From Caldithrix abyssi DSM 13497 (lineage in GTDB: Bacteria; Calditrichota; Calditrichia; Calditrichales; Calditrichaceae), in the NCBI RefSeq assembly GCF_001886815.1, contig NZ_CP018099.1:434001-498000 (forward strand): 64,000 bases of DNA, read 5' to 3'. Below are positions 46,504 through 62,099 of the stretch, one piece after another (position 1 is the first letter of the stretch; each line of letters starts with the position of its first letter). Under the pieces are notes generated by a model that saw only the letters and a list, made by a program, of their open reading frames with translations, was not told where the DNA came from and ran no database searches. Position numbers and translations under genes: made by a program.

Positions 46504-46962
46504 AAATTTTATTTGACACAAAAAAAGGAATATTTTATATTCTAACTGAATTATTTAATCATATCACAAAAATTTTTAAAAAAAAAGTTTTAATCCATCA
46601 GGAAGAATTAAAAAGTAGTTCCAGGGACGGCTAAACATAAAACCTTAGCAAAAAAGGTTGCTGATGGTTTATTGTTTTTACAAAATTCTTAATAGAAACT
46701 TTGTAATTTTTTTGACTGAATCAATTAGCGCTAAAGCCAATCAGCTTTATTTAAAAAGAATAAATTTTAATCTTTTATCTTTTTTATTTAATCATAAATT
46801 CCCCCCCCCCCCCCGCAATTTTGCCTGAAATATTGCCTTTTTCAAATAAAAGAATTTAAATGTTGTTTTGGTTATGATTATTGGAAACTCGCTTTTACAT
46901 AGTTTCGGTAAAAATTTTAAGCGGATTTAATTTTGTTGTTTGAGAAAAACTAAAATTGAAAA
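46504..46962. other. A+T-rich leader region between lon and the first MauE-like gene
   Basis: No gene. It holds a promoter-like pair (46513-46541), a possible folded RNA segment (46595-46667: CCATCAG pairing with CTGATGG around a hairpin AACCTT/AAGGTT), an uninterrupted tract of 14 C (46801-46814), and a 110-base block (about 46855-46962) repeated upstream of the second MauE gene. The long untranslated stretch suggests leader regulation but proves none. Confidence 0.6.
46513..46541 (+). promoter_or_regulatory. Sigma-70-like promoter at island start
   Basis: TTGACA (46513-46518), 17-base spacer, TATATT (46536-46541). Transcription would start near 46548 and read the island on the plus strand. 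Confidence 0.6.
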
Positions 46963-47397
46963 ATGAGAAATTTATTAAACAATTGGCGTTTTCAATTAAT
47001 TTTAAGAATTGTTCTTGGTTTATTTCTTTCGATTTCCGGTGTGGCCAAGATTATGGATTTAGCGGCCTTTGGCAAAGCGGTTAATGGTTTTGGGCTGTTA
47101 CCTTCCACCTGGGTGGTGCTGGTTACTGTTATTATTCCTTATCTGGAATTGATTTTAGGCTTAATGCTGCTATTAAATTTTTATGCCAAACCGGCTTATG
47201 TAACGGCTTTAACCATGCTCATTATTTTTACGGCGCTTTCGGCTTACAAATATTTTAGCGGCGATATTTCGGACTGCGGTTGTTTTGGCAAACTATTGCA
47301 ATGCAAAACGGATGAAAAGCTATTAATTGAAAACGCATTATTAATGGTTTTATTTGCCTTAGGTTTTTTTAAGATGAAAGGGACAAAAAATGAGTAA
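46963..47397 (+). CDS. MauE/DoxX-like redox membrane protein, copy 1
   Basis: 144 aa, four hydrophobic helices. The motif SDCGCFG (C105 and C107) after helix 3 fits the MauE/DoxX redox-associated family. MauE is needed in methylotrophs for disulfide-rich methylamine dehydrogenase small subunit, so a role in making disulfides in exported proteins is inferred. The adjacent small cysteine-rich peptide gene overlaps its end by 8 bases, which supports that. No strong ribosome-binding site. Nearly identical to the copy at 49442; the only non-conservative change near the motif is C113 to Arg. Confidence 0.85.
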   Translation: MRNLLNNWRFQLILRIVLGLFLSISGVAKIMDLAAFGKAVNGFGLLPSTWVVLVTVIIPYLELILGLMLLLNFYAKPAYVTALTMLIIFTALSAYKYFSGDISDCGCFGKLLQCKTDEKLLIENALLMVLFALGFFKMKGTKNE

Positions 47398-47665
47398 CGT
47401 CAAAAAGTTTTTGATCATTGTTTTTACGGTAATGCTGGTGATTAGCTTACAATTTAACACACCATTAACACATAAAATGAACAATGGTTTTTCTGTAACG
47501 CAGTTAATGAATAATTTATTCGTTCCAGAAGCATATGCAACTCAAGCCGGATGGTGTAAAGATATGGGATGTAGATCAGGAGATTATTTTTGTGCTTTTA
47601 TTGTTTTCCCAGATGGTATGGGTACTTGTTATGACCGTGAAGGTCCTCAGTGGCCTAAAGAATAA
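47390..47665 (+). CDS. Small exported four-cysteine peptide A
   Basis: 91 aa. An N-terminal hydrophobic segment (about 7-20) is followed by a polar stretch and the motif NLFVPEAYA ending at A50, then a 41-residue C-terminal part with C-x4-C-x6-C-x11-C (CKDMGC, CRSGDYFC). AYA is a plausible signal-peptidase -3/-1 site, but it lies about 30 residues after the hydrophobic core, unusually far. The leader is nearly the same as in peptide D, while the cysteine-bearing end differs completely. It resembles NVEALA-type Bacteroidota peptides by layout only. It overlaps the MauE-like gene. Function unknown. Confidence 0.8.
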   Translation: MSNVKKFLIIVFTVMLVISLQFNTPLTHKMNNGFSVTQLMNNLFVPEAYATQAGWCKDMGCRSGDYFCAFIVFPDGMGTCYDREGPQWPKE

Positions 47666-47688
47666 AAAATAAAAGGAGGAATAAAAAA

Positions 47689-47919
47689 TTAAAAACAATA
47701 ATAAAAATATTAATAATTATAATAATTTTAATTAATATAAATAGTAATTTTGGCACTAACAAGAGAATCCTTTTAAATATTAAAGATTTATTTATACCTG
47801 AGTTATATGCTTCTGTTCCTTGGGGACTTTGTAAAAAAGCAGGATGTTATTCAGGAGATATTCTTTGCTTTATATGGGAGGATGGTACAACAACTGTATA
47901 TTGTATGGATCATTATTAA
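47689..47919 (+). CDS. Small four-cysteine peptide B without a canonical start codon
   Basis: A 76-codon frame follows peptide A, with AAGGAGG at 47673-47679. Reading from TTA at 47689 gives a hydrophobic stretch (KTIIKILIIIIILINI), then KDLFIPELYA and a C-terminal part with C-x4-C-x6-C-x11-C (CKKAGC, CYSGDILC). This is the same layout as peptides A and C, but no ATG, GTG or TTG exists in frame. The TTA stands where ATG would be expected (LKTII in place of MKTII). Either a start was lost by mutation or a non-standard start is used. The frame is otherwise intact. Confidence 0.6.
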   Translation, partial: LKTIIKILIIIIILININSNFGTNKRILLNIKDLFIPELYASVPWGLCKKAGCYSGDILCFIWEDGTTTVYCMDHY

Positions 47920-47935
47920 AATTGTAGGAGGTAAA

Positions 47936-48199
47936 ATGATAAAAAAAATATTAATTATTTCATTTATTATTTTGTTAGTAAATTCAATAAATTTCTTTGG
48001 TAATTTTAATACAACAAATAAGGTAAGTTTAAAATGCATAATTAAAAATATTTTTCTGCCTGACGTTTATGCATCGGATATGAATCCTTTGGTGTGTGAT
48101 TGGGTAGGGTGTCCTGGAGGTGAAGTAATATGCGCATTTGTCAATGAAGGGCCAGACCCTGACAATGTAATTGCTTGCTATGATTTATTGTTTGTCTAA
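47936..48199 (+). CDS. Small exported four-cysteine peptide C
   Basis: 87 aa. Start ATG at 47936 is placed by GGAGG 6 bases upstream. MIKKILIISFIILLVNSI is the hydrophobic segment; NIFLPDVYA ends at A46. The C-terminal 41 residues have C-x4-C-x6-C-x14-C (CDWVGC, CPGGEVIC). It follows peptide B by 16 bases and precedes a hairpin terminator. Same family as A, B and D. Confidence 0.8.
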   Translation: MIKKILIISFIILLVNSINFFGNFNTTNKVSLKCIIKNIFLPDVYASDMNPLVCDWVGCPGGEVICAFVNEGPDPDNVIACYDLLFV

Positions 48200-48201
48200 A
48201 T

Positions 48202-48238
48202 AAAAGAGGCGGGAAATCCAATTTTCCGCCTCTTTTAT
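48202..48238 (+). terminator. Terminator-like hairpin after peptide C
   Basis: AAAAGAGGCGGGAAA pairs with TTTCCGCCTCTTTT through a short loop and ends with T-rich sequence, just after the peptide C stop and before the propeller lipoprotein gene. Confidence 0.8.
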
Positions 48239-48264
48239 TTAATTAAAATTAGGGAGTTGAAATT

Positions 48265-49272
48265 ATGAGAAAATATATTTTATATTTTATTGTAGTATTA
48301 ATGATATTATTTTCATGTAAAAAAACAATCGAAAAAAAAATTGAAATTATACCTGTTAAAATCTATGAGCAAAATATACATCAAAGAGTATGGAAAAAAT
48401 GTAATTTTGATTTAATAGCAAAAATTAAAAGTGACAGCCTTTACAATCCAATTTCATTAAAAGTAGATAATGAAGAAAATATTTATGTGTATGATCTCCC
48501 GAAACAAAAAATAAAAATGATTTCTAATGAAGGTAAATATATAGAATATGGATCTGGAAGGGGAAAAGGACCAAAAGAATTTTTAAATTTGACAGATTAT
48601 TATATAGATAGTCTTGTTTATATTGTAGATCCTAACCTAAGCAAAGTTGCTATTTTTAAAAAAGATGGGAGATTTATTGAAGATTTTAAATTAAAAAAAA
48701 TAAGACCTTATAGATTTGTTTCTATAGGAAAATATTATCTGATTAGGCCAGTCAATTTGACTGAAAGATTATTTATATTACTTGATAAAAATTTCAAAAA
48801 AATTTCAGAAATAGGTAATTTTTTTGAATACATAGAACCGATAAAGAGAAGTATTCTTTTTGATGGTAAACTATGTACCAATGGAATTGATAAAATATAT
48901 TATGGATTTTTGTATTCTGGAATTATAGCAAAATATGATATAATAAATGATACGTTTGAATATTATAATACCATTGATAAAACAAAATTACCTCAAATAG
49001 AAAAAATTGCTGGAGGAAAAGGAGTAAAAGCTCCTAAAAAAAGTCCCAAAGCATGTATTGATATATTTTTCGATGATGATAAAGTTTATATTTTAACAAA
49101 TACTACTAAAAATAAAGAACCTGTCTTAGATGTCTATAATAGTAATTTATCTTATTTATTTTCATTTAGATTACCGTCAGATAAAATATATTCATTAAAA
49201 ATAAAGAATAAAAAATTATTTGCACTTCTCATAACAGGTGAAATATTAATTTGGCAAATAAAATTTGTATAG
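48265..49272 (+). CDS. 6-bladed beta-propeller lipoprotein 1
   Basis: 335 aa. Lipoprotein signal MRKYILYFIVVLMILFSC with C18 as lipidation site. The mature part has repeated short beta-strand blocks with DxxxNxYVYD-like units and the motif GSGRGKGPKEF (residues 96-106). Propellers 2 and 3 carry the fuller GNGPGE. This GxGPxE phrase is typical of the NHL-like 6-bladed propellers (DUF4934/BF3475-like) found beside NVEALA peptides in Bacteroidota. Probably on the periplasmic or surface side of the membrane. TAGGGAG lies 9 bases before the ATG. Function unknown; binding of the peptides is a guess. Confidence 0.75.
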   Translation: MRKYILYFIVVLMILFSCKKTIEKKIEIIPVKIYEQNIHQRVWKKCNFDLIAKIKSDSLYNPISLKVDNEENIYVYDLPKQKIKMISNEGKYIEYGSGRGKGPKEFLNLTDYYIDSLVYIVDPNLSKVAIFKKDGRFIEDFKLKKIRPYRFVSIGKYYLIRPVNLTERLFILLDKNFKKISEIGNFFEYIEPIKRSILFDGKLCTNGIDKIYYGFLYSGIIAKYDIINDTFEYYNTIDKTKLPQIEKIAGGKGVKAPKKSPKACIDIFFDDDKVYILTNTTKNKEPVLDVYNSNLSYLFSFRLPSDKIYSLKIKNKKLFALLITGEILIWQIKFV

Positions 49273-49441
49273 GTTTAAATCTTGCTAGGGTAAATCATAT
49301 AATTTAAATAGAATGTTATTTCAGATAAAACAATTTAGGTGTTGCTTTGGTTATGATTATTGGAAAATCGTTTTTACTTAGTATCAGTAAAATTTTTACG
49401 CGGATTTAATTTTGTTGTTTGAGAAAAAGTAAAATTAAAAA

Positions 49442-49876
49442 ATGAAAAATTTATTAAACAATTGGCGTTTTCAATTAATTTTAAGAATTGTTCTTGGGTT
49501 ATTTCTTTCGATTACCGGCGTGGCCAAGATTATGGATTTAGCCGCCTTTGGCAAAGCGGTTAATGGTTTTGGGCTGTTACCTTCCACCTGGGTGGTGCTG
49601 GTTACTGTTATTATTCCTTATCTGGAATTGATTTTAGGCTTAATGCTGCTATTAAATTTTTATGCCAAACCGGCTTATGTAACGGCTTTAACCATGCTGA
49701 TTGTTTTTACGGCGCTTTCGGCTTACAAGTATTTTAGCGGTGATATTTCGGACTGCGGTTGTTTTGGCAAACTATTGCAACGCAAAACCGATGAAAAGCT
49801 ATTAATTGAAAACGCTTTTTTAATGGCTTTATTTGCCTTAGGTTATTTTAAGATGAAAGGGACAAAATATGAGTAA
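49442..49876 (+). CDS. MauE/DoxX-like redox membrane protein, copy 2
   Basis: 144 aa, nearly identical to copy 1 (46963) with the same SDCGCFG motif and helices. The upstream 110 bases are also conserved between copies, including GGATTTAATTTTGTTGTTTG, so the promoter or leader was duplicated with the gene. It overlaps peptide D by 8 bases. A fragment of a third copy lies at 51237. Confidence 0.85.
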   Translation: MKNLLNNWRFQLILRIVLGLFLSITGVAKIMDLAAFGKAVNGFGLLPSTWVVLVTVIIPYLELILGLMLLLNFYAKPAYVTALTMLIVFTALSAYKYFSGDISDCGCFGKLLQRKTDEKLLIENAFLMALFALGYFKMKGTKYE

Positions 49877-50153
49877 CGCCAAAAAGTTTTTGATTATTGT
49901 TTTTACGGTAATGCTGGTGATTAGCTTGCGATTTAACACCTCATTAACGCATAAAATGGATAACGGTTTTTCGTTAACGCAGTTGGTGGAGAATATTTTT
50001 GTACCGGAGGTTTATGCCACATTTGGTGGTTATGGGTGTAAAGCAAAATCGGGATGTGGCCATGTTGAATGTACAGGTACTGATACATGCGAGGCAAATG
50101 ATCACTCAGTTACTTGTGATGGTAAAACAAGTACTTGCTTTTGCTATCACTAA
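49869..50153 (+). CDS. Small exported seven-cysteine peptide D
   Basis: 94 aa. Leader is nearly the same as peptide A (MSNAKKFLIIVFTVMLVISL, FSLTQLVENIFVPEVYA to A50), but the end is different: seven cysteines in C-x5-C-x4-C-x5-C-x8-C-x6-C-x-C. This contrast of constant leader and variable cysteine-rich end is seen between the peptides of all three modules. It overlaps MauE copy 2 and is followed by a hairpin and a propeller gene. Confidence 0.8.
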   Translation: MSNAKKFLIIVFTVMLVISLRFNTSLTHKMDNGFSLTQLVENIFVPEVYATFGGYGCKAKSGCGHVECTGTDTCEANDHSVTCDGKTSTCFCYH

Positions 50154-50165
50154 CATTATTAATAA

Positions 50166-50196
50166 AGGCATGGTAATTTTAATTACCATGCCTATA
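50166..50196 (+). terminator. Terminator-like hairpin after peptide D
   Basis: AGGCATGGTAATT pairs with AATTACCATGCCT; the right arm is followed by ATAATTTG. Perfect stem of 13 pairs, located between peptide and propeller gene as in module 1. Confidence 0.7.
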
Positions 50197-50228
50197 ATTT
50201 GTTATAAAATTAATAGTATTATATAAAT

Positions 50229-51224
50229 ATGAGTAATAATATGAAATTAATTATATTCTTTATTTTTATGTTTTTTCTTGTTTCATGTAAAGAAAAATAT
50301 AGTTTTGAAAAACCAGAGATTATTAGAATCTATAATACAGAAAAAAGAAAAATACATATAGGCAATTTGAAGAGAATGCTTAAACACAAAAAATCATTTT
50401 ATTATATTGATAACAAGTCACACATTGTAAAAAAACTAGACGAAAACTTTTATTTAAAAAAAATTATCGCACATGAAGGAAACGGCCCAGGAGAAATATA
50501 TTATCCATCCTCATTTGCAGTTAATAGAGATAAATTATATATTTATTCATCAAGAAAAGAAAATATTATAATATTTGATACTACCGGTACATATATTGAT
50601 GAAATAAAAATTGGAAGGATGTATCCAACTAGATTTGCTATTGATGACAGTCTAAATCTATACTACACCCCAGCTTCATTTGACATCCCAAATCCAATTG
50701 TGAAAATGAATTATAGACAAAAAAAAATAACTACTTTCGGCACATGGTTGAAAAAAAGAGAAAATTTAACAAATTTATTGAGAAATTTAAGACATGTTTT
50801 AATATATAAAAATAATTTAATCTGCGTATCTTATACAGAACCTATTATAGAAAAATATAATCTTACTGGTGAAAAAATTTTCGAAGTAAATATTAAAAAT
50901 TATTCCTTTATGAAAAAGATCATAGAACAAAATGAAAAATTTTATAATAGTTTAAAAAATAAAAATAGGCCTCATGTAGGATCGTTTAGTATTTTGTTCG
51001 ACGATGCTTATACATATGGAGATTTACTTTATCTGACCCTATATGATGAAGATAGAAAGTTAAATAAAGTATTAATTTTTTTATTAAGTAATGATAAAAT
51101 AATCTTTAAAGAGATTTTTAAAATTGACAATTGTCTAATAAAATCTATTAGTGCTGATGAGAGATTTTTGTATGTATTCAATGGTTATAATTTTAATTTT
51201 TTAAAACTAAGACTGGATTTTTGA
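50229..51224 (+). CDS. 6-bladed beta-propeller lipoprotein 2
   Basis: 331 aa from the first ATG; C20 (LVSC) is the lipidation site. The motif EGNGPGE (about 83-89) and several strand repeats mark the same propeller class as 48265 and 51724, though overall sequence has diverged strongly. A second ATG four codons later is an alternative start; neither has a clear ribosome-binding site. Very A+T rich. Probably works with peptide D. Confidence 0.72.
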   Translation: MSNNMKLIIFFIFMFFLVSCKEKYSFEKPEIIRIYNTEKRKIHIGNLKRMLKHKKSFYYIDNKSHIVKKLDENFYLKKIIAHEGNGPGEIYYPSSFAVNRDKLYIYSSRKENIIIFDTTGTYIDEIKIGRMYPTRFAIDDSLNLYYTPASFDIPNPIVKMNYRQKKITTFGTWLKKRENLTNLLRNLRHVLIYKNNLICVSYTEPIIEKYNLTGEKIFEVNIKNYSFMKKIIEQNEKFYNSLKNKNRPHVGSFSILFDDAYTYGDLLYLTLYDEDRKLNKVLIFLLSNDKIIFKEIFKIDNCLIKSISADERFLYVFNGYNFNFLKLRLDF

Positions 51225-51236
51225 CTTATATTTAAA

Positions 51237-51398
51237 GCGCTTTCGGCTTACAAGTATTTTAGCGGCGATATTTCGGAGTGCGGTTGCTTTGGCAAACTTT
51301 TGCAACGCCAAACGGACGAAAAACTATTAATTTAAAACGCGTTATTAATGGTTTTATTTGCCATAGGTTTTTTAAAGATGAAAGGGCAAAAAAATTAG
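51237..51398 (+). pseudogene. Fragment of a third MauE-like gene
   Basis: The C-terminal 54 codons of a MauE-like gene: ALSAYKYFSGDISECGCFGK continues to LLI, then an in-frame TAA (GAA to TAA, at the position of Glu), then NALLMVLFAIGFLKMKGQKN and stop. The first two-thirds of the gene are missing. Remnant is in the same orientation and precedes peptide E as in the intact modules. Confidence 0.85.
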
Positions 51399-51658
51399 TA
51401 ACGCCAAAAAGTTTTTGATTATTGTTTTTTACGTTAATGCTGGTTATTAGCTTGCAATTTAACACCGCATTAACGCATAAAATGAATAACGGTTTTTCGT
51501 TAACGCAGTTGATGGAGAATATTTTTGTACCGGAGGCTTATGCTACAAATCAATATGGGGTAGCGGTAATTGTAATAGGTACAGGCAATATCGCCTGTTG
51601 TCCGAGTGATCGCCCAAATTGTGATCCAAAAGATCCGGATTGGGAACCGTGTCGCTAA
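51394..51658 (+). pseudogene. Decayed peptide E gene of module 3
   Basis: Aligns with peptides A and D: ISNAKKFLIIVF, then an extra T in a T run shifts the frame, then LMLVISLQFNTALTHKMNNG and NIFVPEAYA followed by cysteines CC-x6-C-x9-C. The start codon ATG has become ATT. The mature cysteine region remains intact, so decay may be recent. A shorter product from the internal ATG at 51437 is possible. Confidence 0.75.
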
Positions 51659-51668
51659 AGAACAATAT

Positions 51669-51695
51669 GGAGGAGGAAGGGTGTTTTCCTCCTCC
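51669..51695 (+). terminator. Hairpin after peptide E remnant
   Basis: GGAGGAGGAA pairs with TTCCTCCTCC (loop GGGTGTT). Same position between peptide and propeller as in modules 1 and 2, but no T run follows. Confidence 0.55.
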
Positions 51696-51723
51696 TCAAT
51701 AAAAATGAAAGGAATAGGAGTAT

Positions 51724-52812
51724 ATGAGAATTTATATTTTATTATTTTGTATTTTTTTGATTGTAATATTTTCATGTAATGAAAAAAAAGAAAATTTAAA
51801 TAGAAATACAATAATGTCAACTTCTTTAAATAAATTTTTTGAAATTAACGATAGTCTAATTTTAGAATATCCCATTGATAGTTCTCCAAGTTTTATCAGA
51901 GATATCTGTTTTACCGGAGAAAACTATTATGTATTGGGTAGTAATCGTAAATATCCTTTGGTAAAGTTTGATAAAAAAGGAAATTTTATCAAGAATATAG
52001 GTAAAATTGGTAATGGCCCCGGTGAATTCATTTTTTTTATTCATAAAATTGCCATTAATAAAAATAAAGAAATAGTTGCTAAGACTTTGTCTTTTAATCA
52101 ACTCTATTTAATTAAAAATGATTCAATAGTTTTACGAAAAACTCTGGGTGAAGCAGCCGCAATTTCAGACATTGGATGGTTGAGCAATGATAAAATATTA
52201 TGTACAGGATATGGTAGAGGTAAATGGCATTATTTAATATTCAATAAAAAATTGGAACTTACCGATACGCTGGTAGAGCTCAAGCATAACATCTTGCCGG
52301 AAGGATTTATTGAAAACTTTTCTTTGAATATAAAAGAGAATGAAATTATCTCACATCATTTATATCCGGCTAAAATTTATTTTTATAATTTTAAAAATAA
52401 TCATTTGATTAAAAAAAGAGAAATATATTTTCAAAATTATTTAACCGACTTTAAAAAGGTTGATCTTAATAAAATTCTTGAAAATTACCATAATGGGAAA
52501 ATTTCTTTAATTCAAATGTTATATTCTTTTCCTAAAATTATGTGGCTTACAAGATACAATAAACTTATTACAGGAATATATTATGCCGCCAGAACTTCCA
52601 GAAAAATATCCAAACGAAAAGAAAAAAAATTTTATTTATTCATCCTGAATTTAGAAAATAATAAAGTTAAAGATTTTGAATTGGAGCCGGGAGCTACAAA
52701 AGACTTATATTGCTGGGAAAACGGATTTTTTATTAGTAAATCACAAAAAATAAATGAAAAGATTTTTTATAAACTCTATTTTTTAAATTTAAGAGATAAT
52801 ATCGATATTTAA
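51724..52812 (+). CDS. 6-bladed beta-propeller lipoprotein 3
   Basis: 362 aa, lipidation at C18 (IVIFSC). The GKIGNGPGEF motif (residues 93-102) is the clearest in the set. Several blade-like repeats follow. AGGAATAGGAG precedes the ATG by 6-14 bases. Its peptide and MauE partners in this module are broken, so the lipoprotein may now work with those of modules 1 and 2 or be on the way to loss. Confidence 0.75.
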   Translation: MRIYILLFCIFLIVIFSCNEKKENLNRNTIMSTSLNKFFEINDSLILEYPIDSSPSFIRDICFTGENYYVLGSNRKYPLVKFDKKGNFIKNIGKIGNGPGEFIFFIHKIAINKNKEIVAKTLSFNQLYLIKNDSIVLRKTLGEAAAISDIGWLSNDKILCTGYGRGKWHYLIFNKKLELTDTLVELKHNILPEGFIENFSLNIKENEIISHHLYPAKIYFYNFKNNHLIKKREIYFQNYLTDFKKVDLNKILENYHNGKISLIQMLYSFPKIMWLTRYNKLITGIYYAARTSRKISKRKEKKFYLFILNLENNKVKDFELEPGATKDLYCWENGFFISKSQKINEKIFYKLYFLNLRDNIDI

Positions 52813-52953: not shown

Positions 52954-54762
52954 TTGGTTAGCAGAAAATTGTTGTTTTTATTAAGTTATTCTATCTTTAT
53001 TTCTATTTTCTTGATTAATTTAATTTATTCAAAATCAATTTACAACGGAGTCTATTTTGTTAAAATTTATTTTCTATTTTACGCATCTTTTGTAATCATT
53101 TTTTTAGAATTATTCATTTTATTAAAAGCAGACAAGATAAAATACAGATTTCTTATTATTGATATTTTATTTATTTCTTTATTGACATATTTGATATTAA
53201 CTATTCATTTGAATTATTTATTGATATTTTTATTGCTAAACTTTCTGGTTTTTTATTTTTCTTTTGATTTCATTAAAATAAATTCAAAAATAATTTTTTT
53301 CACTATTCTGATTGTCGCAGTTATCGAATCATTTATCGGCTTATTACAAAACTACGGTTTTGATTTTACCGCTTTGGCTACTTTTTACAAAATTGTAGGT
53401 ACCTACACCACGCCAACGTTGTTCGTAGCTTGCATCACGCATGCCTTGCCTGTGGTTTTGGCATTGTATTACTTAAATAAAAATGAAAACATAAAGAATA
53501 TCATTCTTTTTACAATTGGTTTAATTTTACTGGCTGTTTTACTTTCAGGAATCCGCGCCGCCTGGCTCGCTGCGTTCGTTGGCATTGGATTATTTTTTTT
53601 ATTAAAAGATTTAAATATCATCAAACAGTGGCTTTCTAAAAGGCACATTAAAATTTTTACTGTAATTGCCAGCCTGTTATTGATTATGTTTTTAACATTA
53701 ATGTTGTATTACATACGTCCCGCCTCGGCCAATGCCCGGTTGTTAATCTGGCGTATTAGCTTAAATATGATCAAAGATCATCCTATTACTGGAATTGGTC
53801 TCGGTAATTTTGCCGTACAATATATGAACTATCAGGCGGAATTTTTTAAGAATCCCGCCAATATTGAACATTGGGCCAATGTGGCAGGCAATGTAAATCA
53901 TGCACACAATGAATTTTTGCAAATATTTGTTGAGACGGGCATTTTGGGATTGTTGTTATTTTTAGCGATTTTATTTTTTACATATCAAGATACATTCCGT
54001 CTCATTCGTGCAAATAGATTGAATGAAGAAGATCGTTTAATTATCATCGGATCGATATCCGCTATTTCGTCAATTCTTGTTTTGTCGTTTTTCGGTTTCT
54101 TTCTTTATTTTCCCTATTTAACCATCTTCTTTATTGCTTATCTTGCCATAATTGGTAGCATACTAAAAAAATATCAAAAAGGCATTATTGAATTTCATTT
54201 AACCCGATCTGTTCATCTAACGTTTTTATTTATTATTACTGCGCTATTTTTGCAAATTGCTCCTAAAATGTATAAGGAATACAAAGCGAGAAAAGTCTGG
54301 CAGCAAGCGCTAATATTGGCGTTGTACAAACAACCGGAGTTGGCGATTAAAAAATACAATCAAATCTATGATACGTTAAAAGACAACGGTGAATTTCTTT
54401 TTATGTTTGGTGCTACGTATGTTTCCATTGATAGTTGTCAAAAAGGAATTGAACTTTTAGAACGGTCTAAATTAAATTACAATAATCCAAAAATTTATAT
54501 TGCCCTTGGTAATGGGTATGAAAAATCAGGTCGTTTTCAAAAGGCCATAAAAAATTATCAGATAGCCGGTTATATGATGCCGCATCAATTGTATCCACAT
54601 TATTTATTGGCTAAATTGTATCATAAAATAAAGAATGACAAAAAAGCAATATCAGAAGCCCAGATTGTTATCAATAAACCGATTAAAATTGATTCTCCGG
54701 CTGCCCGGCAGATGAAAGAGAAAATGCACGTTTTATTAGATAAATTAAAGAAGGATCATTAA
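52954..54762 (+). CDS. O-antigen ligase/polymerase-like membrane protein with TPR tail
   Basis: 602 aa. Eleven or so hydrophobic helices in the first about 440 residues with the Wzy_C/O-antigen-ligase region, GIGLGNFAVQYMNYQAE then NVNHAHNEFLQIFVETGILG, whose histidines and glutamate are typical of this family. The last about 120 residues form TPR-like helices. Enzymes of this type join polysaccharide or glycan chains, but similar proteins also serve as non-glycan ligases. The TTG start at 52954 is preceded by AGAGG. The membrane-fusion gene follows immediately. Confidence 0.82.
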   Translation: MVSRKLLFLLSYSIFISIFLINLIYSKSIYNGVYFVKIYFLFYASFVIIFLELFILLKADKIKYRFLIIDILFISLLTYLILTIHLNYLLIFLLLNFLVFYFSFDFIKINSKIIFFTILIVAVIESFIGLLQNYGFDFTALATFYKIVGTYTTPTLFVACITHALPVVLALYYLNKNENIKNIILFTIGLILLAVLLSGIRAAWLAAFVGIGLFFLLKDLNIIKQWLSKRHIKIFTVIASLLLIMFLTLMLYYIRPASANARLLIWRISLNMIKDHPITGIGLGNFAVQYMNYQAEFFKNPANIEHWANVAGNVNHAHNEFLQIFVETGILGLLLFLAILFFTYQDTFRLIRANRLNEEDRLIIIGSISAISSILVLSFFGFFLYFPYLTIFFIAYLAIIGSILKKYQKGIIEFHLTRSVHLTFLFIITALFLQIAPKMYKEYKARKVWQQALILALYKQPELAIKKYNQIYDTLKDNGEFLFMFGATYVSIDSCQKGIELLERSKLNYNNPKIYIALGNGYEKSGRFQKAIKNYQIAGYMMPHQLYPHYLLAKLYHKIKNDKKAISEAQIVINKPIKIDSPAARQMKEKMHVLLDKLKKDH

Positions 54763-55893
54763 ATGTTGAAATATCTTACTTTAGTTTTCTTCCTTTTATT
54801 CTTTTTTTCTTGCTCCCAAAAAGAAAACACGGCAGTCAAAGTAAAAAAGGCGCCGGATATTCCGGTTGAAGTTAAAACGGAACGGGCGTTTAAAGGTAAA
54901 TTGGTAAAATATATTAAAACCGAAGGCATTGCTCAAGCCTTTCGCAAAAGTCCGGTTATTTTTTTCCAGAATGGTTATCTGATTAAAATGATTGCTCGCG
55001 AAGGGCAATATGTTAAAAAAGGCGATTTAATCGCCCAATTGGAAAATGAGCAACAGGCTATCCGTCTTGCGGAAAGTAAGGCTGCCCTGGTTAAAGCCAT
55101 TACCGAATTTGCCGCCAAAACCGGAGATCAAAACATAGCGTTACAACTTTTGAAAAACAATGACAATTCATTTAATGAAGAAAATTATTACACAAATCTG
55201 GATTCACTTGCCAGAGAAATTTTAGGCGGCAAAAGAAGGGCGGAAACTTTGATGGCCCATAGCGGATTAAGCCAGGCTTACACGGCTTACCAAAGAGCCT
55301 TGCTCGATTACAAAAAAACGAAATTTCTTGCTCCGTTTGACGGTGTTGTTGGAAATATTAGCGTAAGAAATGGGGAATATGTTACCGCGGGCGCTCCGGT
55401 ATGTTGGCTTTATGATCTTGCTAAAATAAAAATTGAGGTAGAAGTACTGGAAAATGAGGCGTCGTTAATTAAGGTGGGCAATCCGTGCGAAGTTACGTTC
55501 CCTGCTTTAAAAAATAGGACCTTTAAAGGAACGGTATTTGACAAAAACGTAGCCATAAACCAGGAAACGCATACGTTAAGATTAAACGTTTTGTTAAATA
55601 ATCATGCCCTGGGAATTTCTCCCGGAATGAATGCCCGGGTTAAAATCATTGTAAAATCCGAGAATGAAACATTGCTGGTTCCCAAAAAAGCCGTATTAGA
55701 AAGGGATGGAAGATTTTTAGTTTTTGTGGTAAGAGATTCTATAGCTAACTGGTGCTACATCACGCCGGGCGAAAGCAATGATCAATACGTTCAGGTATTG
55801 GATTCTGAGTTTCATTTAAAAGCCGGCGAGCCTGTTATCGTTGAAGGACAATTTACTTTAGCGCATGGGGCAAGAGTAAAACTTAAAGATTAA
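54763..55893 (+). CDS. RND efflux membrane-fusion lipoprotein
   Basis: 376 aa. Lipoprotein signal ending FFFSC with C17 lipidated; HlyD/MFP hallmarks follow: GYLIKMIAREGQYVKKGDLI (biotinyl-lipoyl-like), a short coiled hairpin (about 80-170), then FLAPFDGVVGNISVRNGEYV and GMNARVKI. It would link the two permeases below to the outer membrane; no outer-membrane factor gene is present. AAGGAT lies 7 bases before ATG. The permease gene follows after 30 bases. Confidence 0.88.
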   Translation: MLKYLTLVFFLLFFFSCSQKENTAVKVKKAPDIPVEVKTERAFKGKLVKYIKTEGIAQAFRKSPVIFFQNGYLIKMIAREGQYVKKGDLIAQLENEQQAIRLAESKAALVKAITEFAAKTGDQNIALQLLKNNDNSFNEENYYTNLDSLAREILGGKRRAETLMAHSGLSQAYTAYQRALLDYKKTKFLAPFDGVVGNISVRNGEYVTAGAPVCWLYDLAKIKIEVEVLENEASLIKVGNPCEVTFPALKNRTFKGTVFDKNVAINQETHTLRLNVLLNNHALGISPGMNARVKIIVKSENETLLVPKKAVLERDGRFLVFVVRDSIANWCYITPGESNDQYVQVLDSEFHLKAGEPVIVEGQFTLAHGARVKLKD

Positions 55894-55923: not shown

Positions 55924-58900
55924 ATGAATTCATTGCTTAGATCGCTTTACAAAAGACCGATAACAATTTTTATGTTTTTCTTAGGTCTTTTAATACTTGG
56001 CGCAATTTCTTTAAAAGAGCTTGAGATTTCATTGCTCCCTCCGTTAAACTTCCCTCAAATTACGGTACATGTTTCCTATTCGAATAGTTCGCCGGAAGAG
56101 GTTGAACAAAACATTACACGCTATCTGGAAGAAGCTTTTAGTACAGTGAATGGCGTTACCGATGTTATTTCACGTTCTTTAAGCGGAGAATCCATTATTA
56201 CATTAAAGTTTGCCTGGGGTACGGATATGAAATATGCCGCGTTAAATGTGCGGCAACAGGCAGATAGGGTCTATAGTTATTTCCCAAAACAGGCCGGTCG
56301 TCCGGTTGTCAATCTCAAACAACCGCAAAACAGACCGATTGTTACTTTAGCTTTAAGCGGCAATTCCTTGTGGGAATTAAAACGGTTTGCCGAATATGTT
56401 TTAAAAAAGCGAATGGAGCAAATTCCTGGCATTGCCGAAGCCGCCATCATAGGCGCCCCGGTTCGTGAAATTAAGGTTTACATTGATCCTGATTTTTTGA
56501 GGATATACGGATTTTCTTACAATGATATTGAGCAGGCCTTAAAAAATAATAATATACTAATTAGCGGCGGGAGTATTAAAAAAGGCCATTTTAGATTGGC
56601 TTTACGGATCAATAGCGAAGTTCAGTCCGTGGAAGATATTGCCCAAATTCCTGTTTTAAACAGAAAAAGAGGGACATTCGTACCTTTAAAAAAACTTGCC
56701 AGGGTCATCGACGGTTCTAAAGAGCCCGAATCATTAGCCAGAATTAATGGTAAGCCATGTATTGCCATCGATATTTACAAAGAAAGCCAGAGTAACACAT
56801 TAAAGATAAATAGTCAAATTGAAAAGGTGGTCAAAGAAATTCGGGACGCATTTCCTGACATTAAAATTCATACTATTTATTCTCAGGCTTCATTCATCCG
56901 TACCACGATTAACAATGTAAGCTATGCCATTTTAAGCGGCGCCGTATTGGCGATAGCGGTATTGTTCTTTTTTCTGTCAAACTGGCGGGCGCCTTTGATT
57001 ATTGCAATTTCTATTCCGGTTTCGGTAATTATTGCTTTTTTATGTATGAAATATTTTGGCATCGGTCTGAATATTATTTCGCTTGCCGGATTGGCATTGG
57101 GCGGCGGTATGTTAGTTGACAATTCCATAGTTGTTCTGGAAAATATTCACCGTTACCGCGAGAACGGCTTCACAACGTTTGAGGCCGCTGTAAATGGCGC
57201 ATCAGAGGTCGCTTTGCCTATTACGGCTTCTACCTTAACGACCATAGCTGTGTTCATTCCGATTCTATTTTTAAAAGATGTCTCGGCAGCTGTGTTTACT
57301 CAGGAAGCAGAAACCGTAACATTTGCGCTCTTGGCTTCTTTACTGGTTAGCTTAACGTTATTACCGGTTATATTCATTTTGTTAGAAAAGAAAAGAAAAA
57401 CCGTTTCAGAAAATGTTCTGGTGAGCAAAGGACTTGAACGGTTCTACGAATCCGGAATTAATTTTACTTTAAAACGGGAAAATTTATTTTTGTCCGTTGT
57501 TTTTTTTCTCCTGATATTGAGCCTGTTTTTGTTAAAAAATTTAGATCGCAGATTGTTGCCGGAAACCGATCAACATGCCGTTGAAATGCGTTGTAATTAT
57601 TTGCCCGGCGTTTCACTAAATTATATTGATAAACACATTCAGCGAACGGAAAAAATTTTAAAAGAACAGCAAGGTATTAAATATTATTACGCAGAGTTGG
57701 GCAAAAAACAAGGCGTTTTTCTTGAACCGGATGAACGAAAATTAAATCGCAGTTATCTGTACATTCAACTGGATAAAAATCAGAATAGTAATCGGTTTAT
57801 TCATCATTTCAAAGAGAAAAATCGATCAGGCGAAAAAATTCAAATTGAATATCGAAAAATTGAGCCTGCTTTGAGCGGCGTATTAGGGAAAAAGGAAGCG
57901 CCCTTGTCGGTTTTTATTAGCAGCCCGTCTTTAAAAATTCTGGATTCATTAGGCCATGCGCTTGTTCAAAAAATTGAAGAAATTCAACCCGGCGCCATTT
58001 ACAATTCCAATTTTTTCGAACGATATCCAACCATTTCATTAGATCTTGATTTAGAACGTATGGCGCTTTATGACCTGACCGCTTCGGACGTTGCTCAGCT
58101 ATTAAAAGTTGCTCTTAATGGTGTTGTAGCTACGCAATTGCGTGATTTTGATCGCAAAATCGATGTATTGGTTAAGGCGGAGGAATCATTTAGAGAAAAT
58201 TTAGATAAGCTATTAAATTTACGAATAAATAATTATCCGATAAGGAATTTTGTAAAGATTAAACGAACCAATGAATTAAGCTATATTGAGCGTAAAAATC
58301 AAAATCGCGTTTTCCGTCTGGATTTAAACGTAGAAAACATTTCTAATTTTGTGAAAAAATTAAATACTCAGATAGAAGAGATTGATCGACCTTCCGATTC
58401 CAACATTTATTTAGGCGGCGAATGGCAGGAAAGCGGAAAATCGATTAAACAATTGTATTTTGCTTTTATTATGGCCATTGTTCTGGTTTACTTAATCCTT
58501 GCCGCCCAGTTCGAATCTTTTTTAGCGCCTTTTGTAATTATGTTTACGGTGCCGCTGGCTTTGATTGGCATTATTCCGGCGCTCTTAATAACGGGGATGA
58601 CCATTAATATTATGTCGGTAATCGGTCTTGTGGTGATTGTAGGTATTGTGGTTAATGATGGTATTCTTAAAATCGATTTTATTCAACGTCATCAGCGAAA
58701 AGGCATGAACCTGAATGATGCCATCCACGCCGCAGGAAAGATGCGCATTCGACCGATTGTGATGACCACGGTTACTACCTTATTCGGGTTGTTACCGCTG
58801 GCTCTGGGTATTGGGCCTGGGGCCGACTTTCAACAACCGATGGCCATTGCCATTATTGGTGGCGAAGGGGTTGCCACTATTTTAACGTTGTTTGTTTTGC

Positions 58901-58932
58901 CTTTACTTTACAAAAAGCTGGTTAGCAAATGA
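55924..58932 (+). CDS. RND-family efflux permease 1
   Basis: 1002 aa, HAE/AcrB-like architecture: helix 1 at the N-terminus, large periplasmic loops about 40-330 and 550-860, and helices 2-6 and 8-12. Recognisable blocks are EEVEQNITRYLEEAFSTVNG, GGGMLVDNSIVVLENIHRY (with an aspartate of the proton relay) and GIVVNDGILKIDFIQRH. Substrate unknown. It overlaps the second permease gene by 4 bases. Confidence 0.92.
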   Translation: MNSLLRSLYKRPITIFMFFLGLLILGAISLKELEISLLPPLNFPQITVHVSYSNSSPEEVEQNITRYLEEAFSTVNGVTDVISRSLSGESIITLKFAWGTDMKYAALNVRQQADRVYSYFPKQAGRPVVNLKQPQNRPIVTLALSGNSLWELKRFAEYVLKKRMEQIPGIAEAAIIGAPVREIKVYIDPDFLRIYGFSYNDIEQALKNNNILISGGSIKKGHFRLALRINSEVQSVEDIAQIPVLNRKRGTFVPLKKLARVIDGSKEPESLARINGKPCIAIDIYKESQSNTLKINSQIEKVVKEIRDAFPDIKIHTIYSQASFIRTTINNVSYAILSGAVLAIAVLFFFLSNWRAPLIIAISIPVSVIIAFLCMKYFGIGLNIISLAGLALGGGMLVDNSIVVLENIHRYRENGFTTFEAAVNGASEVALPITASTLTTIAVFIPILFLKDVSAAVFTQEAETVTFALLASLLVSLTLLPVIFILLEKKRKTVSENVLVSKGLERFYESGINFTLKRENLFLSVVFFLLILSLFLLKNLDRRLLPETDQHAVEMRCNYLPGVSLNYIDKHIQRTEKILKEQQGIKYYYAELGKKQGVFLEPDERKLNRSYLYIQLDKNQNSNRFIHHFKEKNRSGEKIQIEYRKIEPALSGVLGKKEAPLSVFISSPSLKILDSLGHALVQKIEEIQPGAIYNSNFFERYPTISLDLDLERMALYDLTASDVAQLLKVALNGVVATQLRDFDRKIDVLVKAEESFRENLDKLLNLRINNYPIRNFVKIKRTNELSYIERKNQNRVFRLDLNVENISNFVKKLNTQIEEIDRPSDSNIYLGGEWQESGKSIKQLYFAFIMAIVLVYLILAAQFESFLAPFVIMFTVPLALIGIIPALLITGMTINIMSVIGLVVIVGIVVNDGILKIDFIQRHQRKGMNLNDAIHAAGKMRIRPIVMTTVTTLFGLLPLALGIGPGADFQQPMAIAIIGGEGVATILTLFVLPLLYKKLVSK

Positions 58933-61900
58933 AACAATTTCTTGACTGGTGGTTAGAAAGACCGGTTTCGTTTTTAATTCTTAATATCATTATCATTATT
59001 CTAGGATTTCTATCGGTACTGAGTCTTCCCCTTGAACTTTCTCCTGAAGTTGAGTTGCCGCAGGTTTCCATTACGGTTTATTACCCGAATAGCTCGCCAG
59101 AGATGATAGAGGCTTTAATTACATCTCCTATCGAAAGTAGAATGCAGGAACTTTCCGATTTACGAAAAATTGAATCTGTTTCATCAAACAATTCAGCGCG
59201 TGTTACTTTGAAATTTGACCGTAAAGCCGACATGGCGTTTGTCGTTTTTAGAATCAATGAAATTCTCAGCGATTATCAATCATGGTTGCCGGAAGGGGCG
59301 TTTAAACCGCAGATACAAAAATACATCCCCGAAGAATTTAAAAGTGAAAGTTTTTTAAGTTATCGCTTATTAACCGACCTCCCCGAAAATGAGCTCTATC
59401 GGATGGTTCAGGATAAAATAAAACGCCCCTTATTAAATATTCCTGGCGTGTCTTCCGTTGAAATTTTTGGCCTTAAAACTCCGCAAGTAGAAATATTGTT
59501 GAATTTGAGGCAAATGAATCAATATGGCATTTCACTGAATACCATTCAACAGAAATTATCAAGCGCTAAAATGCAGGTGGGAAAACTGAAAAATGAAAAT
59601 CTAATTTTGCCAGTTAGCATGGATCTTAATTTCAAAAACATCGAGGAAATTAAAGATATTCCGTTTAAGATTTCAGAAACAAGATTAATTCATTTAAAAG
59701 ATTTCGCGATTGTTAGGCAGGGCTATCAACCGCTTCGATTTAAAAAACGGATTAATGGCAAACATACCATTTTGATTTCAATCGAAAGAGAAAAAGGTAG
59801 CAACACCATATCTGTTGCGGATCGGGTTTTTAAAGTTATCCGAAAGATTGAAAAACAACTGCCGAAAGATAATCAGTTGATTTTAGTGGATGATGCCAGT
59901 AAACCGATCCGAAAGGCGTTGAATGATTTGTTGATACGTACGGCAATCGCCATGGCCTCCATGTTCTTTTTATTGATTTTAGTTTTGCGTCGTTTGCGCT
60001 ATACGTTTATTATCATCACAAGTATTTTATTGTCTATCGCTTCTATTTTTATTTTAACAAAATTTATTGGTTATTCACTCAATTTGGTGACGCTTGCCGG
60101 TCTGGCGTTGGGCCTTGGTTTTATTATTGATAATTCTATTCTTGTTTTTGACGCCATTGAATCCTCAAAAGAAAAAAAAGAGATCATCTACAAGACAATA
60201 AAAATCATTTTTCCGGTTTTTGCCTCCACACTAACAACTCTGGTTGCTTTGTTTCCTTTTATTTTTCTTCATGGAATAATTAGAACTTATTATATTCCAT
60301 TTGCCTTTATAGTAACGGTCGCCTTATTGTCCTCCGTTTTTTTTGCATTTATTTTTATCCCGGCTGCTTTTAGGCATTTAAATCAGAACAAGACTATTTT
60401 GCCGGGGCGATCTTCTTTCTTTCAATTACACCTGAAAAACCTTTACGGCAAAATATTGTTTAAAATAATTCGGTTCAGGAAAGTCGTCATCGTTTTATTT
60501 ATCTTATCATTTGGCATTCCATTATGGTTATTACCGCAATCGATTGATAAAGATCATCAACAAGGGATTAAAGCCTTTCTGGCAAATCTTTACAATAATA
60601 CCCTGGGTAGTGAATTCTATCAGTCCGTAAGAGAATATACGGACCCTGTTTTAGGGGGCTCTCTTTATTTGTTCTTTAATTACGTTGAACGCGGCGAACC
60701 ATGGAGATGGTGGTCAGGTAATAAGCTTTATGTTTATATTCGTATGCCTCATGGCAGCGACCTGGGCATAAGCGAAAAAATAATTCTTGAATTCGAAAAA
60801 ATAGCCTTAGCGCAGGAAGGTATTGACAAAGTTGAAACGACTATTAGTCCGTCTGCAGCCTATTTATCCATTTCATTTAAACAAAAAACATTAAATTCCT
60901 TTGTGCCTTATTATTTAAAAGAATTGCTCATTCAAAGGGCAACCAAAGTTGGCGGAGTGTACATTTCTGTCTCAGGATTCGGAGACCCTTATTCAAGCGG
61001 GTTTTACGGAACCGTTTCAAATTTTCGAATCAAATTAACCGGATATAGTTATACCGGATTAAAAGCCCTTGCCTTGCGGTTAAAAAAAGAACTTGAAAAA
61101 AACATCCGCGTTCAAAATATCGATATTAACGCTCCATTAGGTTTTATTCTTGAACCATTATATGATATGCAAATGGATATGGATAAATTTAAACTGGGCC
61201 AGATGGGGCTTACTCCAAAAGAGGTTATTCCATTGTTGCGTTTGTACACTTCGGAGCGGTTGACTGCAAGACGAATTAAAATAGGTTATGAAGAAAAATT
61301 TTTATCCATTAAATCTCAAAATTATGAACGATTACAACTGGATGAATTAAAAAGTTTATGGTTTCGGTCTTCTGCAAATATTCCTTTTAGGCTTAATCAA
61401 TTTTCTTCTTTTCAAAAGAAAAAAGTGCTCAATGAAATCCATCGGGAAAATCAAGAATATATTCGAATGTTTACCTTTGACTATTTAGGGCCATATCATT
61501 TTGGAACGGAGTATCTAAATCAAGTATTAAAAAATTTTAGAGTACCGGTCGGTTATAAAGTATTACCTTTTTATTGGCGAGAAAAAGAAAAAGATAATTC
61601 TCAATTGATTTTAATTGTATTCCTGGGGTTGCTTTTTATTTACATGGTTACGGCTTCTTTGTATGAATCGTTTCTGGATCCTTTATTGATTTTTTTAACG
61701 ATTCCAGCCGGTTTGGTAGGTATTTTTTTACTGTTTTATTTTACCGATACCATTTTTACAAAATCAGCTTACATTGGCGTGCTTTTTATTAGTGGGATTG
61801 TTGTTAATAATTCCATTATTCTTGTTAGTAAATATAAACAATATTTTTTGCGAAGTCATTCCATTGTTAGAACAATAATTAGAGGCAACCTTAATCATTT

Positions 61901-62099
61901 CCGGCCAATTTTTTTAACTACTTTTACAACAGTATTGGGATTTCTTCCTATGATTCTTCTTTCGGAGCAAAATGCCGATAATATATGGTACACGCTTGCT
62001 TTAACAGGGTTAGGAGGGATGATAAGTTCTTTCTTATTTATTCTGTTTGTTTTGCCAGTACTTTTTTATTCTTTTCATAAAAAAAGAAAAACAATTTAA
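58929..62099 (+). CDS. RND-family efflux permease 2
   Basis: 1056 aa, same fold as permease 1 but clearly diverged: ITVYYPNSSPEMIEALITSP near residue 45, GLGFIIDNSILVFDAIE in helix 4 and GIVVNNSIILVSKYKQYFL in helix 11. The helix-4 aspartate pair is reduced to D-N as in permease 1. Two tandem permeases fed by one fusion protein suggest a heteromeric pump. Stop at 62099 is 24 bases before the lon 3'-end remnant. Confidence 0.92.
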   Translation: MKQFLDWWLERPVSFLILNIIIIILGFLSVLSLPLELSPEVELPQVSITVYYPNSSPEMIEALITSPIESRMQELSDLRKIESVSSNNSARVTLKFDRKADMAFVVFRINEILSDYQSWLPEGAFKPQIQKYIPEEFKSESFLSYRLLTDLPENELYRMVQDKIKRPLLNIPGVSSVEIFGLKTPQVEILLNLRQMNQYGISLNTIQQKLSSAKMQVGKLKNENLILPVSMDLNFKNIEEIKDIPFKISETRLIHLKDFAIVRQGYQPLRFKKRINGKHTILISIEREKGSNTISVADRVFKVIRKIEKQLPKDNQLILVDDASKPIRKALNDLLIRTAIAMASMFFLLILVLRRLRYTFIIITSILLSIASIFILTKFIGYSLNLVTLAGLALGLGFIIDNSILVFDAIESSKEKKEIIYKTIKIIFPVFASTLTTLVALFPFIFLHGIIRTYYIPFAFIVTVALLSSVFFAFIFIPAAFRHLNQNKTILPGRSSFFQLHLKNLYGKILFKIIRFRKVVIVLFILSFGIPLWLLPQSIDKDHQQGIKAFLANLYNNTLGSEFYQSVREYTDPVLGGSLYLFFNYVERGEPWRWWSGNKLYVYIRMPHGSDLGISEKIILEFEKIALAQEGIDKVETTISPSAAYLSISFKQKTLNSFVPYYLKELLIQRATKVGGVYISVSGFGDPYSSGFYGTVSNFRIKLTGYSYTGLKALALRLKKELEKNIRVQNIDINAPLGFILEPLYDMQMDMDKFKLGQMGLTPKEVIPLLRLYTSERLTARRIKIGYEEKFLSIKSQNYERLQLDELKSLWFRSSANIPFRLNQFSSFQKKKVLNEIHRENQEYIRMFTFDYLGPYHFGTEYLNQVLKNFRVPVGYKVLPFYWREKEKDNSQLILIVFLGLLFIYMVTASLYESFLDPLLIFLTIPAGLVGIFLLFYFTDTIFTKSAYIGVLFISGIVVNNSIILVSKYKQYFLRSHSIVRTIIRGNLNHFRPIFLTTFTTVLGFLPMILLSEQNADNIWYTLALTGLGGMISSFLFILFVLPVLFYSFHKKRKTI

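Follow-up and report, generated by a model that had tools for sequence, protein, structure and literature searches.

Tandem units of MauE, cysteine-rich secreted peptides and propeller lipoproteins in Caldithrix abyssi and Bacteroidota: a candidate system of constant leaders and variable cores

The window studied here, 64,000 nucleotides of Caldithrix abyssi DSM 13497 (positions 434001-498000 of a single-contig genome of 4,978,541 bases), contains three units on the same strand, flanked by lon (3' end at 46503) and a gene for a Wzy_C membrane protein with tetratricopeptide repeats (Wzy_C/TPR, start at 52954). Their order is MauE, one or more cysteine-rich secreted peptides, a hairpin and a propeller lipoprotein (LP) of the DUF5128 family. 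With somewhat better than even confidence, we read these units as a system of secreted disulfide peptides with constant leaders and variable cores, in which the LP would be the specific binding partner of the peptide, and which would serve antagonism or recognition. This reading builds on what the sequences reveal: the anatomy of the units, a sharp junction between leader and core, the recurrence of the arrangement in another phylum, the co-inheritance of cores and LPs, and the propeller fold modelled for the LP. The features of the units are:

46840..47541, plus strand: constant cassette of unit 1, spanning the region upstream of MauE, MauE itself and the leader of the peptide, 702 nt, 92% identity to 49319-50020
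46963..47397, plus strand: MauE/DoxX-type membrane protein of unit 1 with a DCGCFG motif (PF07291, E=1e-24)
47390..47665, plus strand: peptide 1a precursor, 91 amino acids (aa), leader end VPEAYA/T (the slash marks the leader/core junction), 4-Cys core, 8-nt overlap with MauE, recovered by the leader profile A5
47689..47919, plus strand: peptide 1b, leader ..FIPELYA/S, 4-Cys core, intact frame without ATG, GTG or TTG
47936..48199, plus strand: peptide 1c precursor, 87 aa, leader ..FLPDVYA/S, 4-Cys core, matched by the leader profile
48197..48241, plus strand: hairpin separating peptide 1c from LP1, resembling a terminator or attenuator, minimum free energy (MFE) -27.5 kcal/mol
48265..49272, plus strand: LP1, propeller lipoprotein with lipobox FSC (PF17170, 27.4 bits, E=2.5e-6)
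49319..50020, plus strand: constant cassette of unit 2, the 702-nt match to unit 1
49442..49876, plus strand: MauE of unit 2 (PF07291), 94% identity to MauE of unit 1
49869..50153, plus strand: precursor of peptide 2, 94 aa; its core has 7 Cys and no Trp and shares 68% identity with that of the peptide in genome G007
50166..50193, plus strand: hairpin between peptide 2 and LP2
50229..51224, plus strand: LP2, six-bladed propeller lipoprotein by its model (PF17170, 29.0 bits, E=7.7e-7)
51231..51546, plus strand: truncated copy of the constant cassette in unit 3, made up of a stop-containing MauE fragment and a frameshifted leader, 317 nt, 91% identity to unit 2
51437..51658, plus strand: peptide 3, 73 aa from an internal ATG, 4-Cys core, original start lost, 1-nt insertion in the leader
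51669..51695, plus strand: hairpin between peptide 3 and LP3, MFE -18.8 kcal/mol
51724..52812, plus strand: LP3, propeller lipoprotein (PF17170, 44.1 bits, E=2e-11)

An initial annotation, made from the letters of the window, had described three successive units. Two are indeed complete; the third is a remnant with a degenerate MauE and leader and an intact core and LP. Unit 1 consists of MauE, the peptides 1a, 1b and 1c, a strong hairpin and LP1, unit 2 of MauE, peptide 2, a hairpin and LP2, and unit 3 of a MauE remnant with in-frame stops (about 51231-51400), a frameshifted leader with an intact core, a hairpin and LP3. The elements named in the annotation were likewise recovered: MauE is intact at 46963 and 49442 and fragmentary in unit 3, peptide genes overlap both intact copies by 8 nt, each unit has its hairpin, and each has a lipoprotein above the curated cut-off of PF17170 (6-bladed beta-propeller, DUF5128; 22.9 bits). 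In peptide 1b, a TTA codon follows AGGAGG where the start would be expected, pointing to a dead start or to non-standard initiation. Repeats of 702 and 317 nt at 91-92% identity, together with recurrence across genera and phyla, indicate that the layout exceeds chance.

The repeats define a sharp boundary within the peptide genes. The block shared by units 1 and 2 starts about 120 nt upstream of MauE and ends at 47541 and 50020, the first codon past VPE(A/V)YA, i.e. at the leader/core junction, and the 317-nt match between units 2 and 3 stops at the same junction. Up to this point the leaders of the three units are 78-89% identical; beyond it, the cores share 25-28% of their residues, which is near noise, and the LPs align over short stretches only (27 bits). 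Since the identity ends at the junction and the cores and LPs have diverged, the cassette of MauE and leader is the product of a recent duplication or homogenisation ahead of older, divergent payloads of core and LP. Cassette and payload have different histories, and the alignments are direct evidence for this. Elsewhere in the genome there is no further MauE above the PF07291 cut-off, and there are no further copies of the peptides.

The arrangement is not restricted to C. abyssi. The annotation had proposed to look for MauE near peptides with the motif F-x-P-x-x-Y-A and had regarded unrelated neighbours of MauE in other genomes as fatal to the idea of a module. The search was positive in another genus of the Calditrichota and in the Bacteroidota, and it is these same peptides that adjoin MauE there (genomes G007, G653, G460 and G884). 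G007, which belongs to another genus of the same family, carries on contig 96 (JALSTK010000096) a MauE cut by the contig end, followed by a peptide, an LP, an adaptor and two RND pumps, and the gene order downstream of the LP matches that of the window. The leader of this peptide is 65% identical to its counterpart in the window and the core 68% identical to that of peptide 2, as compared to 18-24% for peptides 1a and 3. A third, weak leader match in G006 (E=0.006) falls in an Lgt-like gene and was rejected as chance. An alignment-based scan for MauE yielded five loci, two of which hold a distant MauE with no module in view; a simple single-protein scan of the genome contigs for MauE found nothing. 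In the Bacteroidota, G653 and G460 possess the gene set of the window, i.e. MauE, Wzy_C/TPR, peptides, LPs and thioredoxin-like proteins. Their Wzy_C/TPR proteins score 252 and 243 bits against the window gene, and in G653 RND pump 1, the adaptor and RND pump 2 lie downstream of the module. Two MauE/LP units of G653 are separated by an insertion element (L112, 5800-7150). The array of G460 (locus L152) encodes four peptides with a common leader (...MFFNLQIATNPNxNGDIDLFGLKISLFxPSVYAT) and unrelated cores, with an LP after each.

A profile of leaders leads to further pairs of peptide and LP. Profile A5, which comprises seven leaders only and excludes the cores, was searched in 391 genomes of the class of G460 and gave 16 matches in genomes not used for its construction, 15 of them with a propeller LP adjacent or in the same short cluster. 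The sole match lacking an LP (L173) is weak, lies inside a 527-aa membrane protein and was discarded as chance. Given tens of LPs per 4-Mb genome, we estimate that a site picked at random would have an LP no further than 1.5 kb away in only a few per cent of cases. In five of the new loci (L166, L172, L177, L179 and L186) a Wzy_C gene directly precedes the peptide, and L170 and L180 contain MauE or a fragment of it. Among 385 mixed genomes (about 345 of them outside the Calditrichota) A5 matched the two known Calditrichota and no other genome, and the profile is therefore specific. This reverse test was used instead of a count anchored on the LPs, on which we do not rely: A peptide lies directly upstream of 11 of 27 Bacteroidota LPs and of 11 of 62 controls (p=0.03), and nine of the eleven "control" matches proved by eye to be propeller or module genes. 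Strong DUF5128 LPs are present in 29 of 296 sampled Bacteroidota genomes, and the peptides next to LPs in this phylum show several leaders: NVEALA (L114), double-glycine (L127) and Sec-like leaders with AxA ends (L130, L145 and others).

Peptide core and LP evolve together, also where the leaders are identical. In Mantel tests restricted to comparisons between different genomes, core similarity correlated with LP similarity across 29 adjacent pairs (r=0.46, p=0.0002; none of 5000 permutations as high) and across a second set of 26 mostly new pairs (r=0.42, p=0.0002); in the second set the correlation persisted when the comparison of peptide 2 with G007 was removed (r=0.36, p=0.0002) and for the Bacteroidota alone (r=0.39, p=0.0004). 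These values are subject to the phylogenetic non-independence of the pairs and to the noise in local alignments of short Cys-rich cores, caveats that are lessened and not removed by leaving out same-genome comparisons. Individual loci agree with the correlation. The LP beside the peptide 2-like core of G007 scores 160 bits against LP2 and about 34 bits against LP1 and LP3. In an array of G580 with identical or nearly identical leaders, LPs are related (normalised scores 0.38 and 0.49) in the two pairs with similar cores (0.26 and 0.34), and the remaining LP pairs score 0.02-0.06. In the array L152, the LP nearest to LP2 among the Bacteroidota is the neighbour of the peptide that most resembles peptide 2. 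The cognate pairing very probably means that core and LP are functionally linked in some specific way. The annotation had suggested that the lipoprotein binds or presents the peptides; co-inheritance lends strong indirect support to binding, which is the most likely relation of an LP to its own peptide.

The structural model of LP2 predicts a six-bladed propeller of the NHL type (predicted local distance difference test (pLDDT) 77.5, predicted template modelling score 0.76) that is nearest to the NHL domain of Brat (Z 22.8) and also resembles BF0058 of B. fragilis (4raa, Z 19.9) and a DUF4221 protein (3s9j). The best relatives of LP1 sit in peptide loci of the Bacteroidota (L168, 85 bits; L179, 68 bits). 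In G597 of the Bacteroidota (L131), about nine propeller lipoprotein genes follow one another near RND pump genes, with no Cys peptide detected. The window peptides matched no family in Pfam or NCBIfam, and no match to the NVEALA family PF14055 was obtained at E<=5. A hairpin placed between the two genes would let the output of peptide exceed that of LP.

For MauE, family membership is clear: The protein of unit 1 matches PF07291 with 87.7 bits (curated cut-off 27) over residues 10-136, the full domain. MauE probably acts on these cysteine peptides, and family knowledge points to an oxidising role. The annotation had noticed the lack of a thioredoxin-like partner in the window, and indeed no thioredoxin of the MauD type is found among the open reading frames between 44 and 63 kb; several Bacteroidota modules do carry such a partner, a membrane protein of about 200 aa with a conserved CxxC that is ResA-like (4nmu, E=7e-6). 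MauE has two contexts in these genomes, inside peptide-LP modules and, as is usual elsewhere, linked to rhodanese. In the latter a rhodanese gene regularly precedes MauE and a peptide is absent (L045, L046, L048, L049, L051, L154, L155, L159 and L160), and this recurrent pairing suggests a second, separate role of MauE. In the Calditrichota genome G034, a TlpA-like thioredoxin, a Cys-rich secreted peptide and MauE stand in a row that lacks a propeller gene (L052, 5019-7006; L053, 3596-5012), possibly a simpler system of MauE and peptide. A fusion of MauE and thioredoxin lies directly downstream of a small Cys-rich lipoprotein gene in the Flavobacteriales (L081, 7642-8864).

Downstream of unit 3, the window continues with possible partners of the module:

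52954..54762, plus strand: Wzy_C membrane protein (O-antigen ligase/polymerase type) with TPR (PF04932, 6.6e-23)
54763..55893, plus strand: periplasmic adaptor of the HlyD/CusB type, possible export partner (PF16576, 2e-23; same order in G007, 65% identity)
55924..58932, plus strand: RND pump 1, possible export partner (PF00873; order kept in G007, present in G653)
58929..62099, plus strand: RND pump 2, possible export partner (PF00873)

By gene neighbourhood, Wzy_C/TPR is the most regular extra partner of the module: Besides the five A5 loci named above, a homologue directly precedes the peptide in L132 and another lies inside the array L152. The Wzy_C superfamily includes O-antigen ligases and protein O-oligosaccharyltransferases, so that glycosylation of the peptide or the LP may be possible. 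MauE and Wzy_C are candidate enzymes for a modification of the core that goes beyond proteolysis. The conserved order of the RND genes in the window and in G007, and their presence in G653, suggest that the pumps might serve as exporter. Upstream of unit 1, a poly-C run at 46802-46814 may be a slippage or phase-variable tract or an assembly artefact.

From these findings we infer how the peptides would be exported, cleaved and furnished with disulfides, what would bind them and which role they may have. The leader, an N-terminal hydrophobic helix with a pro-region of about 25 residues that ends in xPxxYA, would direct the precursor across the inner membrane, and removal of the leader at YA/T or YA/S would release a small Cys-rich core. 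In the periplasm MauE, aided by the ResA-like thioredoxin where present, would form the disulfides of the core by oxidation of its cysteines, and each core would be bound specifically by its own co-encoded six-bladed propeller lipoprotein. Because hypervariable cores stand in arrays behind a single re-used leader, with LPs that track them, the peptide most likely acts outside the cell, in antagonism of relatives or in recognition, and the LP would protect or register the producer. New units would arise when the cassette of MauE and leader is placed ahead of an old payload of core and LP. Hypervariable cores, a re-used leader, arrays and matched partners resemble contact- or diffusion-based antagonism with immunity; as the actual role, immunity and antagonism are an option to which we give slightly less than an even chance.

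Several observations weigh against this proposal. Profile A1 detected the peptides in just two of 40 genomes of the Calditrichota. MauE is absent from view in many Bacteroidota modules and is hence not obligatory, and 16 of the 27 Bacteroidota DUF5128 LPs have no detected peptide directly upstream, which means that this family has other uses or that the peptide was missed. The linkage to RND genes is weak overall (nine LPs versus 3.9 expected within 12 kb, P~0.02). As for the peptides themselves, their predicted structure is uninformative (pLDDT 48), the distance of about 25 residues between hydrophobic helix and cleavage site is unusual for signal peptidase I, and with seven cysteines, an odd number, one Cys of peptide 2 would stay unpaired.

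The co-inheritance of core and LP is also what one would predict if the peptide were a permanent subunit of the propeller. There is a precedent in the mau cluster, which encodes the propeller MauB, the disulfide-rich light chain MauA that docks on it, MauE and MauD, and which, like the units described here, brings together the MauE family, a small Cys-rich exported protein and a beta-propeller. By this account MauE, with a MauD-like thioredoxin, would be the maturase of a periplasmic sensor, enzyme or binding protein, and the combination of MauE, thioredoxin, small Cys-rich protein and beta-propeller does echo mauB/E/D/A. We nevertheless regard such a complex as unlikely: The cores are hypervariable, a single LP may serve more than one of them, as in unit 1 with its three peptides, no electron-transfer partner is in view, no MauD is encoded in the window, and the propeller is a lipoprotein of the six-bladed NHL type. 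Membership in methylamine dehydrogenase was rejected, since the tryptophan tryptophylquinone cofactor needs two Trp residues in the small subunit and the core of peptide 2 has none.

Cognate pairing and diversification would equally be expected of peptide signalling. The core would then be a pheromone-like secreted signal, perceived by the LP as a receptor on the surface or in the periplasm, and diversification would keep signals private; the hairpins, which could raise the peptide over the LP transcript, would fit as well. No conserved sensor kinase or regulator adjoins the units in the loci examined, however, and we consider signalling improbable. The decay of unit 3, the missing start codon of peptide 1b and the absence of the module from most relatives of Caldithrix are what one would expect of coincidental neighbours, i.e. 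ordinary short exported proteins or gene remnants caught in neutral tandem duplications. This explanation has very little left to recommend it: It is already largely contradicted by the recurrence across phyla, and the adjacency of an LP to 15 of 16 leader matches, the Mantel tests and the conservation of the peptide 2 core between genera all speak against it.

Among the closest known systems are the NVEALA peptides (PF14055) that accompany PF17170 LPs in Bacteroides-type genomes. Such peptides had been named in the annotation as neighbours of six-bladed propellers, and in L114 peptides that match PF14055 (E=1e-12 to 1e-14) do alternate with DUF5128 LPs. As in the window, there are tandem units of peptide and LP, a variable C-terminus that contains cysteines, a leader in which an N-terminal hydrophobic helix is followed by a pro-region with an AxA-like site at its end, and, in L114, a Wzy_C and a membrane fusion protein (MFP) gene nearby; the window peptides differ in lacking a PF14055 match, in their cleavage motif xPxxYA and in having MauE within the unit. 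Class II bacteriocin and polymorphic toxin-immunity arrays share with the units the constant export leader, the variable payload with its matched neighbour and the tandem cassettes; here the partner is a propeller lipoprotein. In the open-access PubMed Central (PMC) literature we found no described function for NVEALA or DUF5128 and no description of a system of this layout. New in this work are the exact junction of constant and variable parts, the recurrence across phyla and the statistical match of core and propeller. Matched pairs of peptide and propeller provide a testable role for DUF5128 LPs and NVEALA peptides, the loci form a ready-made natural set of pairs, cognate as well as non-cognate, and the leader profile recovers new members with almost no false matches. 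If the proposed folding step is true, MauE would have a natural role in the formation of peptide disulfides outside methylamine metabolism, and if the peptides act between cells, competition or recognition in the Calditrichota and Bacteroidota would have a layer that has so far gone unrecognised, the latter phylum including dominant gut bacteria. We tentatively envisage a categorically new class in at least two phyla, and would not yet put its existence at even chance: disulfide-stapled polymorphic peptides folded by MauE and ResA, with the propeller LP as cognate immunity protein or receptor, Wzy_C/TPR for a further modification or step, and different exporters, with xPxxYA, NVEALA and double-glycine leaders, feeding the same pairs.

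Two further systems invite comparison. According to part of the decRiPPter report (PMC7794033), MauE, in one case together with MauD, lies beside a candidate precursor of a ribosomally synthesised and post-translationally modified peptide in Streptomyces and was proposed to modify it; these families differ from the window in belonging to another phylum, and that part of the report describes no propeller lipoprotein or repeated units. Double-glycine peptides (TIGR04149-like) with C39 peptidases in the Bacteroidota have a different leader and exporter from the window peptides, and in L127 of G580, Cys peptides with such leaders alternate with the same kind of LP (TIGR04149 match 18.2 bits, below the cut-off of 25), and LP similarity follows core similarity. 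In this locus, a truncated C39-type peptidase gene, a Cys peptide with a double-glycine leader and a propeller lipoprotein are repeated about five times.

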